From positions 186,001 through 250,000 of the forward strand of contig NZ_JAYEZN010000001.1 of NCBI RefSeq assembly GCF_037031225.1: DNA of 64,000 bases, read 5' to 3'. Positions within the stretch are counted from its first letter, which is position 1. Each line of letters starts with the position of its first letter. Below the pieces are notes generated by a model. The model searched no databases. It worked only from the letters and a program-made list of their open reading frames with translations, and was not told where the DNA came from. Of the stretch, positions 5,788 through 51,032 are shown piece by piece. Both the position numbers and the translations under genes were made by a program. The DNA comes from Halorientalis sp. LT38 (GTDB taxonomy: Archaea; Halobacteriota; Halobacteria; Halobacteriales; Haloarculaceae).

Positions 5788-6821
5788 GCCAGGCACAGAC
5801 GGCAGAACGGCCGGACGATCCGGTTGCGTACTTCCTGCAGGACATCGAGTTCCAGGGCAAGTCGACCCGGACGCGCGACTCCTACGCGCGCGTGCTCCGG
5901 CAGTTCGAGCGGTACCTCACTGCGAACGACGTGGATGGCCTCGACGCCGCGTCCTACCGCGATTGCATGTCCTGGATCCACACGCTCCGGGGCGCACACG
6001 CCGAGAGTACGATCGCAACGTACGCGTCCTATCTCCACCGGTTTTACTCCTACATGGTCCAGGTCGGCGTCTTCGAGTCCAACCCGATGACCGTGGTGAT
6101 CGAGGAGATGGACGAGTCGATCCACACCGACCCCACCAGACGCGACCTCTCGATCGAGGAGATGCGGGGCTTCGTGAACACGATCGCCCACCCGCTCGAC
6201 GAAGCCATCGTGACGACGCTGCTCAAGACCGGCATGCGGTCCGGGGAGCTCTGTAATCTCGACGTCCGCGACGTGAACGTCGAGGGCCTCTCACTGGACG
6301 CCAGCGGGTTCGAGACGGTCAGACCCCAGCTCCAGGGCCGGCCGGACTCGATCTACGTCGACGACGAACCGGCGCGAGACGAGACCATCAACGGTGAACG
6401 ACGATCCGCTTCGAACAAGCGCAAGCGAGCGACCGTCGTCCCGGTCGATTCGGAGCTCAAAGCGGCGCTCGAACGCTGGCTCGCCGTGCGACCGGATCCA
6501 GCGTCCCCGGCCGAGCCGCTGTTCGTGAGCACGAGCCGCAACTGGGGTGAGCGAGTCACGATCGACACCGTCCACCACGTCGTCGCCTCCAACGCTGAAC
6601 GAATGGGCTGGTACCGGACCGGCGGCGGCGCCGACGAGAACGTCACGCCCCACTACTTCCGGCACTTCTTCACCACGCATCTCCGGGATCGGACCGGCGA
6701 CCGCGGCATCGTCAAGTACCTGCGTGGCGACGTGGCCTCGGACATCATCGACACCTACACGCACGACTGGGGCAGTAGAGTCCGAGAAACCTACGAGCGA
6801 CACATCTACTCGCTGGTCTGA
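5784..6821 (+). CDS. Site-specific tyrosine recombinase (XerC/D-like)
   Basis: A 345-aa integrase. Residues 14-105 are a SAM-like N-terminal core-binding domain (KSTRTRDSYARVLRQFERYL). The catalytic domain has Arg152 in GMRSGELCNL, candidate lysines 212-215, and the H-x-x-R block His290-Y-F-Arg293-His294. The position of the second conserved His/Trp (LGH in Xer proteins) reads LRGD, with Asp316. The likely nucleophile is Tyr325 in IDTYTH. It overlaps the DUF5805 gene by 4 bp. With no phage or plasmid genes around it and no flanking tRNA, it is either a resident chromosome-maintenance recombinase or the remnant of an element. Confidence 0.88.
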   Translation: MSQAQTAERPDDPVAYFLQDIEFQGKSTRTRDSYARVLRQFERYLTANDVDGLDAASYRDCMSWIHTLRGAHAESTIATYASYLHRFYSYMVQVGVFESNPMTVVIEEMDESIHTDPTRRDLSIEEMRGFVNTIAHPLDEAIVTTLLKTGMRSGELCNLDVRDVNVEGLSLDASGFETVRPQLQGRPDSIYVDDEPARDETINGERRSASNKRKRATVVPVDSELKAALERWLAVRPDPASPAEPLFVSTSRNWGERVTIDTVHHVVASNAERMGWYRTGGGADENVTPHYFRHFFTTHLRDRTGDRGIVKYLRGDVASDIIDTYTHDWGSRVRETYERHIYSLV

Positions 6822-48024: not shown

Positions 48025-49185
48025 ATGCAGGACCACGCGTCCATCGTCGTCGTCGGCGGCGGCATCATCGGGGTCAGCATCGCGAACGCGCTCACGAAGG
48101 CGGGCGTCGAGGACGTGCTGGTGCTCGAGAAGGACTCGCTCGCGTCCGGGTCGACGGGGCGGTCCGCAGGCGTCATCGAGACCCAGTACTTCACGGACTT
48201 CGACGTCGCCATCCGGGCGTACTCGCTGCGGGCGTTCGAACGGGTCGCCGACGAGACCAGGGCGGAGTTCCCACAGGTCGGCTACGTCCGGTTGCTCATG
48301 GACCCGGACGACGAAGAACGGTTCAGGGAGAGCATCCGTATCCAGCGTCGCCACGGCGTCGACGACGCTCGCTTTCTCGATCCGTCCGAGGTCGCTACCG
48401 TCGTCCCGGACCTGAACGTCGAGGACGTCCACGGCGCGATCTACGGCCCCAGCGACGGGTACGCCGACCCGTACACGATGACCCAGATTTTCGCCGAGCG
48501 CGCGCGGACGAACGGGGCGACCGTTCACACCGGGGTCGCCGCCGAGTCGGTGGCCGTCGACGACGGGGAGGTGCGGGCCGTCGAGACGAGCGAGGGACGG
48601 GTCGAGTGCGAGACGGTGGTGAACGCCGCTGGACCGTGGGCCCCGAGGCTCGCCGCCCAGACCGGGCTGGAGCTACCCGCAGCGCCGTACCGTCGACAGG
48701 TCATCGTCGCGGAGCCGCCCGAGGAGGACGCCCCCGACTACACGATCCCGACTGTGATGGAGTACGTGCCCGGTGGGTCGAAGGCGGGCGTGTACTTCCG
48801 CGGGGAAGGAGCGAACCAGGTGCTACTCGGACTCCACCAGGAGGTCGGCACGGACGAGGAGCCCTCGGACCCGGACAGATACTCTACGGACTACGACGAA
48901 TCGGTCGTCCTGGAGATTTCGGACCTCCTCGACCACCGTGCGCCGGCCTTTTCCGACCTCTCGGTGGTGAACGGTTGGAGCGGCCTCTACACGATAACGC
49001 CGGACACCCAGCCTATCATCGACACTCACCCGTCGATCGACGGCTACGTCCTGGCCGCCGGCTTCAGCGGCAAGGGGTTCCAGATCGGCCCGGCCGTCGG
49101 GGAGATCGTCTCGGACCTCGTCCTCGACGGCGAGACCGATCTGGTCCCGGACCTCTCCCCGGTCAGTCTGAGCCGATTCGAGTGA
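48025..49185 (+). CDS. FAD-dependent DAO-family oxidoreductase
   Basis: A 386-aa flavoprotein with the dinucleotide-binding start IVVVGGGIIGVSIANALTKAG (residues 7-27) and the second FAD contact STGRSAGVIE. The C-terminal GFSGKGFQIGPAVGEIVSDLVL is typical of sarcosine oxidase/D-amino-acid dehydrogenase-like enzymes. Middle residues PYRRQVIVAEPPEED are the usual substrate-domain boundary. It oxidises an amine or amino acid; the pairing with a hydroxyacyl dehydrogenase gene 2 bp upstream suggests a small catabolic unit. Confidence 0.85.
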   Translation: MQDHASIVVVGGGIIGVSIANALTKAGVEDVLVLEKDSLASGSTGRSAGVIETQYFTDFDVAIRAYSLRAFERVADETRAEFPQVGYVRLLMDPDDEERFRESIRIQRRHGVDDARFLDPSEVATVVPDLNVEDVHGAIYGPSDGYADPYTMTQIFAERARTNGATVHTGVAAESVAVDDGEVRAVETSEGRVECETVVNAAGPWAPRLAAQTGLELPAAPYRRQVIVAEPPEEDAPDYTIPTVMEYVPGGSKAGVYFRGEGANQVLLGLHQEVGTDEEPSDPDRYSTDYDESVVLEISDLLDHRAPAFSDLSVVNGWSGLYTITPDTQPIIDTHPSIDGYVLAAGFSGKGFQIGPAVGEIVSDLVLDGETDLVPDLSPVSLSRFE

Positions 49186-49366
49186 CGAACCGCTCCCTGT
49201 GGTGACGGCCGCGTTCGTTTCATCGTTCGGATCGTCACCTCTCGCGTCGAGAGGACGGCGCTCGGGATAGAAGCACGCTTCGGGTCTGAAATCGGGTGAC
49301 GCCGACGGGAGGCTGACACAGGAAAGGAAACGTATTTCAATACGACCCCGTTACCTTGAATCGCCA

Positions 49367-49440
49367 GGGCCGATAGCTCAGTCCGGCAGAGCGACGGCCT
49401 CTTAAGCCGTCGGTCAAGGGTTCAAATCCCTTTCGGCCCG
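49367..49440 (+). tRNA. tRNA-Lys (anticodon CTT)
   Basis: A 74-nt tRNA. Acceptor stem GGGCCGA pairs with TCGGCCC, discriminator G at 49440; the anticodon stem closes loop CTCTTAA, giving anticodon CTT for the AAG codon. The T arm reads GGGTTCAAATCCC. No intron. The 3' part is repeated 171 bp downstream; see the repeat entry. Confidence 0.95.
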
Positions 49441-49640
49441 TAATTCCTGGCGTCGCTCACTCACGAGCGACGCCGAATTTCGATAGAAAGGATTTGAACG
49501 AGACTGGCTGGAGTCCGAGCGTAGCGAGGAAGCAGCCAGGCGTAGTTCAAATTCCGACCGACGGAGTCGGTCGACGTGCGCGACAGTGGTCGCGCACTCC
49601 CTTTCGGCCCGTAATTCCTGGCGCTCGCAACTCGCGAGCA
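49427..49640. repeat. Duplicated tRNA-Lys 3' segment with nested hairpins
   Basis: A 26-bp direct repeat occurs at 49427-49452 (tRNA 3' end plus 12 bp) and 49598-49623. Each copy is followed by a hairpin (9-bp stem 49450-49473; 6-bp stem 49623-49639). Between them lies an inverted copy of the T arm (gaaaggatttgaac, 49486-49499), inverted pair CTGGCTG/CAGCCAG (49504-49510, 49533-49539), then another T-arm start (gttcaaat, 49545-49552) split from its continuation by 45 bp holding two perfect hairpins (8-bp stem 49555-49573; 9-bp stem 49576-49597). It looks like the scar of repeated insertions at a tRNA attachment site. Confidence 0.75.
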
Positions 49641-49709
49641 CCGGTACCTGAGTTCCGTTGAGCGACAGGGCCGCCGAAGGGATTTCCGACGGCCGCCCGA
49701 AGTCGGGGT

Positions 49710-51032
49710 ATGAGACGCAGACGCGACTTCCTCCGCGTGGGCGCGGTGACGGTGGGCGCCACGCTCGCGGGCTGTTCGTTCCTCGACAGTAACTCACAGC
49801 CGGAAACGAACGTCGGCACCGAAGCGATCGCGACCGGGTTCACGGCGCCGCTGGGGATGGAGCCGATACCGGACAGTAACGGGTTCTTCGTCGCGGACCA
49901 GGCCGGCCAGATCCATCTGGTGGGTTCGAGTGGCCGGCGCGAACGGCCGGTACTGGACCTGACCGACCGCATGGTCGACCTCAATCCGGGGTACGACGAG
50001 CGGGGGCTGCTCGGCATCGCTACGGGGCCGAACTTCGCGGAGCGCAGACGGCTGTTCGTCCGCTACAGCGCGCCGCTGCGGTCCGGGATGCCGGAGGACT
50101 ACAGTCACACCTTCGTCCTGTCGTCGTTCGCGGTGGACGCGGAAGGACGGTCGAATCCGGACAGCGAACGGATCGTACTGGAGATCCCGCAGCCACAGGC
50201 GAACCACAACGCCGGGTCGATCACGTTCGGCCCGGACGAGTTCCTCTACGTCGGGGTGGGGGACGGCGGTGGGGGCAACGACGTCGGGACGGGACACGTC
50301 GAGGACTGGTACGACGGGAATCCGGGCGGGAACGGGCAGGACGTGTCCGAGAACCTGCTCGGCAGCGTCCTCCGCATCGACGTTCGTGAGGGCGCCGGCG
50401 GGGCAGGCGACAGTCGCGCGTACGGCATTCCGGACGACAACCCTCTCGTGGGACGCGACGGGTTGGACGAGCACTTCGCGTGGGGCTTCCGCAACCCCTG
50501 GCGCTTCTCGTTCACCGACGGGCGCTTCTTCGTCGCGGACGTGGGCCAGAACCTGTACGAGGAAGTCAGCATCGTCGAATCGGGAGGCAACTACGGGTGG
50601 AACGTCCGCGAGGGGGCCCACTGCTTCGACGCTGGCGCGCCGGGATCGCCGCCCGAGGACTGTCCGGCCGAGACGCCCGACGGGTCACCCCTCCGGGAGC
50701 CGATCGTCGAGTACGCACACGAGGGCGACGAGATCAGCGGCATCTCGGTCATCGGCGGGTACTTCTACACCGGGGGTATCGGGCCCCTCGCGGATCGCTA
50801 CGTGTTCGGCGACTATCGGGCCGATGGGACGATCTTCACCGCCAGCGAACCCGACGACGGCGGGCTGTGGGATCTCTCGCGGGTCGCGCTGGATGACGGC
50901 GAGGGTGAGCCGCCGGGGGAGTTCCTGCTGGCGTTCGGTCGCGACGCCGACGGGGAACTGTACGTCCTGACGACCGACGAGGGCGGGCCCCGGGGCAGTT
51001 CCGGGGCGGTACACCGGCTGGTCGCGGTGTAG
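49710..51032 (+). CDS. PQQ-dependent soluble aldose dehydrogenase-like lipoprotein
   Basis: A 440-aa exported protein. Tat-type N-terminus RRRRDFLRVG and lipobox LAGC with Cys22. The six-bladed propeller of soluble glucose/aldose dehydrogenase is seen in DERGLLGIATGPNFAERRRLFVRYS, NHNAGSITFGPDEFLYVGVGDGG, FAWGFRNPWRFSFTD and GQNLYEEVSIVESGGNYGWNVREG, typical of PQQ-binding Asd. It oxidises sugars outside the cell with PQQ; haloarchaea usually lack PQQ synthesis, so PQQ would have to come from the environment. ATG 49710. Confidence 0.88.
   Translation: MRRRRDFLRVGAVTVGATLAGCSFLDSNSQPETNVGTEAIATGFTAPLGMEPIPDSNGFFVADQAGQIHLVGSSGRRERPVLDLTDRMVDLNPGYDERGLLGIATGPNFAERRRLFVRYSAPLRSGMPEDYSHTFVLSSFAVDAEGRSNPDSERIVLEIPQPQANHNAGSITFGPDEFLYVGVGDGGGGNDVGTGHVEDWYDGNPGGNGQDVSENLLGSVLRIDVREGAGGAGDSRAYGIPDDNPLVGRDGLDEHFAWGFRNPWRFSFTDGRFFVADVGQNLYEEVSIVESGGNYGWNVREGAHCFDAGAPGSPPEDCPAETPDGSPLREPIVEYAHEGDEISGISVIGGYFYTGGIGPLADRYVFGDYRADGTIFTASEPDDGGLWDLSRVALDDGEGEPPGEFLLAFGRDADGELYVLTTDEGGPRGSSGAVHRLVAV

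Follow-up and report, generated by a model that had tools for sequence, protein, structure and literature searches.

Integron cassettes usually carry a gene, and the core site of attC reads GTTRRRY / RYYYAAC. MITEs combine a short target duplication with transposon-related ends, and REP elements have GTAG at the foot of a hairpin. The bulge-helix-bulge motif consists of two 3-nt bulges on opposite strands with a 4-bp helix between them. The available portion of a paper on archaeal integrons (PMC9668308) contains no mention of tRNA or Halobacter. In PMC7923331, as far as its available text goes, IntegronFinder was applied to 47 halophilic archaeal genomes, and CALIN were reported, among 104 genomes, only in the bacterium Halorhodospira halochloris. 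No description of the units presented below was found in the open-access literature, including the available parts of PMC3119063, PMC9897764, PMC8371274, PMC9668308, PMC7923331, PMC7714728 and PMC6333295. The unit family appears to be undescribed, although absence from print is unproven because the search was restricted to open-access sources.

The locus under study lies in a window of 64,000 nt, the whole stretch of DNA that was analysed, from Halorientalis sp. LT38 (contig NZ_JAYEZN010000001.1, positions 186,001-250,000, labelled G000:C1; assembly of 3.58 Mb in two contigs). Coordinates are those of the window unless labelled otherwise. The host gene, tRNA-Lys(CTT), is predicted by ARAGORN at 49367-49440 on the forward strand (Rfam RF00005, 71.8 bits; T54-N73 at 49421-49440), and nothing besides RF00005 exceeds the Rfam gathering score in 48801-50400. 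It is followed on the same strand by a trailer (49441-49485) with a first hairpin (hp1, stem inside 49442-49479; DNA fold z -5.2, 0/200 shuffles as good); a hairpin is also present at this place in units of other tRNAs. An inverted T-arm half on the reverse strand comes next (GAAAGGATTTGAAC, 49486-49499; R''-like arm). Its core, GGATTTGAA (49490-49498), is generic across units, and the inverted copy at 49487-49499 is 92% complementary to 49420-49432. A variable hairpin module (49499-49545, forward strand) has a predicted outer stem of CTGGCTG (49504-49510) and CAGCCAG (49533-49539) and is 90% identical to a unit in the congener G390 (locus L008). Homology to the host tRNA begins, on the basis of sequence and junction statistics, with a direct T-loop copy, GTTCAAAT (R'-like arm; 49545-49552, forward strand).

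The T-loop copy is followed on the forward strand by a 45-bp second element (49553-49597) with two perfect hairpins, one of 8 bp with a 3-nt loop (49555-49573) and one of 9 bp with a 4-nt loop (49576-49597; DNA fold z -5.8). The remainder of the tRNA tail, TCCCTTTCGGCCCG (49598-49611), then resumes on the same strand and, with 12 nt of trailer, forms an exact 26-bp direct repeat (49598-49623) of 49427-49452, at a spacing of 171 and extendable to 42 nt at 83%. This is the repeat claimed by the preliminary description, which had been made from the sequence alone; sequence and DNA fold also agree with its account of a second copy split in the T loop by 45 bp with two perfect hairpins, and of an inverted T-arm copy between both copies. 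The displaced distal trailer (49612-49642, forward strand) begins with the same TAATTCCTGGCG as the tRNA-proximal one and has its own weaker hairpin (z -2.6, 4/200 shuffles as good). Hairpins thus stand after each copy as that description held, but "terminator-like", its word for them, describes their shape only. The entire stretch 49482-49610 folds as DNA at z -6.3. Ahead of the insert, the predicted fold joins the inverted arm to GTTCAAAT; past the insert, it joins the GAAAGG of that arm to CCTTTC. This indicates that the 45-bp insert sits inside an older palindrome whose pairing it leaves intact.

A BLAST search of the region against its own genome returned five further places. The split T-arm copy recurs behind tRNA-Gly(TCC) (93%) and tRNA-Asp(GTC) (85%), each time closing with the tail of that tRNA, and so the structure at tRNA-Lys(CTT) is not a chance arrangement; the tRNA-Lys(TTT) locus has the same architecture. 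The tRNA set of this genome comprised 43 places by RF00005, from which 43 ARAGORN genes were read (the tRNA-Leu in L092, 533-625, looks spurious, and one Rfam place has no ARAGORN gene). With the best ungapped match of G53-N73 in the next 450 bp as the measure and a threshold of at least 16/21, at least 18 of the 43 tRNAs have their own tail repeated downstream, against 0/43 for a reversed-sequence control and 90/1806 for the tails of other tRNAs. An inverted copy of at least 12/16 is also present in 8 of these 18. The tRNA-Lys(CTT) gene itself scores 15 because its tail copy is split.

The preliminary description would have been refuted had the sequence occurred only once, away from every other tRNA. 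The same parts occur behind many tRNAs of this genome and of most haloarchaeal genomes, and its proposal that a structured, non-autonomous element exploits tRNA ends fits them well. Repeated recombination at the tRNA, offered there as the other reading, is probably the mechanism of this element. The "scar" of a single event at tRNA-Lys must be abandoned, as the locus is instead one member of a clade-wide family of array-forming units.

The spread of this family was followed with a strict pattern, GATTTGAA-N(25-55)-GTTCAAATCCC, with the backwards pattern as control. Within the order, 301 of 392 sampled genomes contain it, with no backwards hit among the matches listed. In a phylum sample of 294 genomes it was found in 45, namely 43/53 of the order and 2/241 others (split counted by hand), and among the 80 loci listed in a scan of named genomes, 61 have haloarchaeal titles, as judged by reading them. 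Placement was examined in 60 regions around listed matches from 15 genomes, in which merging of palindromic double matches left 88 units. For all but two of these (86/88), a tRNA on the same strand precedes the unit by less than 700 bp; the exceptions are a unit 63 bp from a tRNA on the wrong strand (L274) and one for which no tRNA was found (L283). A unit measures about 100-170 bp and consists of a trailer hairpin, the inverted T-arm half GGATTTGAA, a variable hairpin module and a copy of the host T54-N73. The median distance from the tRNA end or the previous unit to the inverted arm is 52 bp, and arm plus module have a median of 61 bp. Location downstream of a tRNA on its strand is also what would be expected if the units were functional RNA that selection maintains as parts of the tRNA transcript (processing signals, tail decoys or alternative 3' ends), with the similarity among loci reflecting convergence on one RNA motif.

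Junctions were analysed in a wider collection of 228 tRNAs and 209 units, a biased sample in that most loci were fetched because they bear units. Arrays of one, two, three, four and five units number 122, 25, 8, 2 and 1, the longest being five units behind tRNA-Ser(TGA) of one genome (G039, L260), each of which closes with the host tail. Over T54-N73 the direct copy matches the host tRNA at 0.86-1.00 per position, whereas other tRNAs agree with it at only 0.22-0.60 at the variable positions 64-68, 70 and 71; at positions 48-51 the own tRNA matches no better than others. This profile places the block common to unit and tRNA at G52-N73, with its left edge at the G before TTC. The true crossover point is hidden in this 22-nt block and may lie anywhere inside it. 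Copying of the inverted arm from the host tRNA was considered and dropped: the arm is mostly generic (complement of TTCAAATCC), with a weak own signal only at positions 64 (0.44 vs 0.23) and 65 (0.41 vs 0.29). T-loop variants are followed by the arms in places, as behind tRNA-Lys(TTT), where the loop is TTCAACT and the arms are GTTGAA or ATTGAA. No clear T-loop preference emerged (44/90 TTCAAA and 11/27 TTCGAA tRNAs filled). The tail is exact at positions 63-72 in 118 of 158 first units, a point in favour of a function in the transcript. In multi-unit arrays the last copy has a mean agreement of 0.881 (23/36 exact) and the other copies 0.976 (41/51 exact). This modest effect, seen in sequence comparison, fits an old tail that would have been pushed to the far end. 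Insertion at the tRNA-proximal end could not be upheld: last copies are somewhat more decayed, yet unit order between congeners is not polar.

The inner modules (192 distinct) each consist of a spacer, a short stem and a tip, with 79 distinct stem boxes. Their spacer pairs fall into the classes CCCT/TCCGG, NTAGA/GCGTGG, TCAGGGA/GACCGTGG, CTACG/AGGTGG and TCACGG/GCATCGGG, the right side being mostly one base longer. Left and right stems score at least 5 with their own partners in 128/192 cases and with shuffled partners in 263/958. By class, paired cells number 130/140 (shuffled mean 91, maximum 103) and 164/180 (mean 78, maximum 97), and in further classes 54/60 (mean 41, maximum 51) and 82/116 (mean 44, maximum 58). 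The fifth class has no pairing excess (21/66; shuffled mean 18, maximum 22), probably because fixed windows misalign it.

Strong covarying hairpins are again compatible with a functional RNA. The G-U bias expected of a transcribed RNA is missing from the module helices. In an unbiased fold of 80 distinct units, 42 G-T and 51 A-C pairs occur inside stems. A stricter count found, in the modules, 6 G-T against 37 A-C pairs, 34 of the latter being C-A, next to 36 T-T mismatches. The spacers of hp1 gave 15 against 24, and tRNA genes, which served as control, 46 against 23. Nothing here suggests that G-U is tolerated on the transcribed strand; since the counts are not independent, this is a pointer and not proof. 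A single recurrent position in one of the module classes is taken to be the main source of the C-A excess, so the argument from pair counts is weak. Two further points stand against an RNA function: many orthologous tRNAs of congeners have no units, and the facing spacers do not form the bulge-helix-bulge needed by the splicing endonuclease of H. volcanii (according to the available part of PMC7714728). Selection on the transcript is judged an unlikely account of the family.

The palindromes also recall non-autonomous relatives of IS200/IS605 (Y1) transposons or REP-type palindromes, which would insert as single strands next to a short T-arm motif. One module class begins NTAG, to be set beside the GTAG of REP elements; the left spacers vary (CCCT, NTAGA, TCAGGGA, CTACG, TCACGG), which does not suit such an origin. 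Many palindrome-associated elements and small mobile repeats (PATE and SMR, Haloquadratum) are known in haloarchaea, but, as far as the available part of PMC3119063 states, they lack target duplication, and here a 20-nt tail, often with trailer, is repeated. A Y1- or REP-type origin is regarded as quite improbable.

Gain and loss were compared among G000 and the congeners G098 and G390. At tRNA-Lys(CTT), 12 other loci of the family have different modules, other insert types or none, and one is empty (G206, L049). From the congeners, 45 loci each (15 + 30) were taken; 61 non-array tRNA places had been planned, and one in G390 was omitted. The Lys(CTT) region occurs at both ends of one congener contig with identical scores (G098:C1 10858-11717 and 3372588-3373447), probably a circularisation overlap. 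Thirty-six tRNAs have an orthologue in all three genomes, the loci L464, L477, L478 and L483, which lie within tandem tRNA clusters, having been excluded beforehand. In the 108 pairwise comparisons, only one of the two sites is filled in 40 (filled/empty) and neither in 36; both are filled in 17 without a common module, and 15 have one in common. A regular expression made the calls, and inspection by eye exposed three errors: units were wrongly called at tRNA-Tyr of G000 and at tRNA-Asn of G390 and missed at tRNA-Lys(TTT) of G098. If all three tRNAs are removed, filled/empty pairs make up 34 of the remaining 99 comparisons. The cleanest difference is at tRNA-Cys, where two units (112 and 100 bp) are present in G098 and none in G390, and the G098 sequence after the last copy aligns with G390 directly after the tRNA and into the next reading frame. 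As an alignment of two congeneric species and not a direct observation, this pair is the nearest evidence for a putative precise excision. Unit order in the congeners gives no clear polarity of insertion, which counts against a mobile cassette.

Such patterns could arise with no special mobility, by template switching at tRNA 3' ends followed by homologous recombination between tails or strains that duplicates, deletes and swaps units and modules. The units are direct repeats, arrays contain near-identical neighbours (L281, L260), and the unit at tRNA-Lys(CTT) combines the first hairpin of one G390 unit with the module of a second, the expected product of a deletion between inverted T-arm halves. 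Tandem homologous recombination could account for growth and loss of arrays without a special enzyme, which also weighs against mobile cassettes. This account is possible but doubtful, in that 100 of the 130 pairs of modules with at least 90% similarity stand at different tRNA types with different tails, the module stems stay paired while their sequence changes, and the junctions fall at the same tRNA position in 209 units.

The 45-bp piece is a real two-hairpin structure, as first described, but it is not part of the unit proper: it is a second, separately recurring insert within it. A search of all collected loci for TTC(A/G)A(A/T)T(T/C)CC followed by two perfect hairpins found 15 instances, each with a tRNA 89-470 bp upstream; in 14 an inverted T-arm half lies within the preceding 100 bp. 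Stem 1 has 7, 8 or 12 bp with a 3-nt loop and stem 2 has 7-9 bp, after which the T stem and acceptor resume. Stem sequences vary freely among instances, so this too is a structure-bearing insert. Its use as a mark of array ends was not established (14/15 have no later unit, but 158/209 units are last anyway). A third kind of insert is seen after some tail copies: a CTCCCTGCGGTCG-like hairpin, a second hairpin and then the T-stem/acceptor end of the same tRNA (L071 and L078, at tRNA-Gly(CCC) and tRNA-Arg(CCT) of the LT38 genome; L289, L318). A conserved stretch, CCACnTTTTT..CGTGGGCGAAAAAA..GGTGAACCGCGCTCGC..GCGCGGATGC, occurs behind several tRNAs and inside the G098 Lys array (L072, L085 and L125, at tRNA-Ala(CGC), -Arg(CCG) and -Pro(GGG) of LT38; L039, L045).

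No pointer to an enzyme came from the PF00589 integrase profile, which is present in 24/24 genomes with and without strict matches. In the window, PF00589 (Phage_integrase) matches a 465-aa open frame at 6195-6767, with no tRNA nearby in the window. The LT38 genome has two integrase-bordered elements, one of about 15.5 kb at tRNA-Ala(GGC) (G000:C1, about 564200-579900) and one of about 21 kb at tRNA-Pro(TGG) (about 2184900-2206060). The far ends of both have a copy of the tRNA tail and no module; ordinary tRNA integration thus coexists with the units, and the missing modules count against mobile cassettes. On a plasmid of Haloarcula halophila (NZ_CP119561.1; L442, about 1440-1570), a tRNA cluster includes a tRNA-Cys-like gene (identity by eye) whose T arm is split by a short hairpin together with a CCCTGCCAG-type module and which lacks an intact tail ahead of them; this case speaks for mobile cassettes. 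A TROVE gene lies beside this cluster, but nothing was found tying TROVE to the units, and a Ro60/Y-RNA link was dropped. TROVE in haloarchaeal tRNA clusters has already been published (PMC6333295, seen in part). On the haloarchaeal plasmids L439, L441 and L443, a conserved GC-rich stretch with GCGCGCAGCGAAGCGAGCACG lies near position 401, just upstream of "DNA-binding protein" genes; the same stretch in L440 is beside other genes.

Homology searches with a 61-nt module query led nowhere, as the phage search gave 26 weak non-haloviral records (the best 15 of 26 with E-values of at least 2) and the plasmid search 48 records, two of which cover most of the query. Among the matches listed, the other plasmid records share no more than a 22-mer from the inner hairpin, which there has other surroundings. 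A pattern scan of viral contigs gave at least 120 stretches; of the 80 loci viewed, 9 have a GC content above 0.53 and none is a haloarchaeal unit by eye. Two prophage contigs (L176 1095-1180 and L196 2314-2400) have a near-perfect palindrome of two inverted tRNA 3' ends, adjoined in L196 by a reading frame resembling a tyrosine recombinase (by eye); an attP of similar design is possible.

The preferred reading, held at about even odds (a probability of roughly 0.5), is that the structure behind tRNA-Lys(CTT) belongs to a family of small, gene-less mobile cassettes on haloarchaeal tRNA 3' ends. What was observed in its favour is the anatomy, the clade-wide spread, the strict place downstream of tRNAs, tails cognate to the host, arrays, whole units gained and lost between species, and covarying stems. 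Exchange by recombination within G52-N73, with an enzyme acting in trans, is inferred; no enzyme was found, and no circular form or excision event was seen. The proposed model is as follows. One cassette would run from the host T54 through the tRNA 3' end, trailer hairpin, inverted T-arm half and module to the next T54. It would enter by recombination inside the G52-N73 block that it has in common with the host tRNA, restoring a complete tRNA and displacing the previous tail downstream. As the cassette encodes no enzyme, a trans-acting recombinase (most likely a tyrosine recombinase) or host recombination must move it. The folded palindrome of arm, unpaired spacer, short variable stem and variable tip would be read as DNA and not as RNA. 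At tRNA-Lys(CTT), the array may have shrunk to a single unit carrying the two-hairpin insert in its T-arm copy. Only as a tentative extension can the family be seen as a second, integron-like haloarchaeal system in which tRNA genes are capture sites, gene-less attC-like cassettes are inserted at the T arm by an unidentified recombinase, the tRNA is rebuilt each time and arrays extend across most of the tRNA set.

If mobile cassettes are the correct explanation, an overlooked element is present in tens of copies on the tRNA genes of most haloarchaeal genomes, and the 3' ends of these genes are rewritten repeatedly with function kept. The units would then be a natural assay for T-arm recombination, relevant to the long-standing question of why integrases favour tRNA genes, would bear on pre-tRNA 3' end formation in haloarchaea and would lead annotation to report false "tRNA fragments" and to misplace attachment sites.

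Among known systems, REP/RAYT elements match the units poorly: only some modules have the GTAG start, five spacer classes exist and the criterion is unmet. The bulge-helix-bulge criterion of archaeal tRNA introns is not met either, since the opposed spacers measure 4-7 and 5-8 nt (by eye). The SMRs and PATEs of Haloquadratum walsbyi, as far as the available part of PMC3119063 describes them, resemble the units in being about 110 bp long, palindromic and gene-less, with a strong target preference and unexplained mobilisation; they target other mobile elements without target duplication, whereas the units target tRNA T arms and repeat the tail. The SMR/PATE/MITE criterion of no or a short target duplication is thus unmet by units that repeat a 20-nt tail, often with the trailer. 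The units differ from integrons in their arms (GTTCAAAT / GGATTTGAA and not GTTRRRY / RYYYAAC, so that the core-site criterion is unmet), in being gene-less, in the absence of a demonstrated intI (only the broad PF00589 was searched) and in having a tRNA gene as "attI". The likeness to attC appears, by this comparison, to be one of anatomy and not of sequence, and without a core match or a demonstrated integron integrase the units are not classed as an integron. That likeness comprises a palindrome with paired outer arms, unpaired spacers and paired variable inner boxes (a criterion met, with pairing far above shuffled partners in three spacer classes), a right spacer one base longer in the commonest classes (offsets 5/6, 4/5 and 7/8), a short variable stem, a variable tip and a break in homology after a G before TT. 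Arrays of discrete units are likewise formed by attC x attI cassettes (PMC9668308, in the part available). Integrative elements at tRNA sites, in the available account of PMC8371274, carry an integrase and kilobases of genes, for which the units are too short, and the units carry a conserved inverted arm and module. In both, the tRNA is rebuilt, a tail copy is left at the far end and tandems are possible, and the criterion of a duplicated tRNA 3' end is met by the units.
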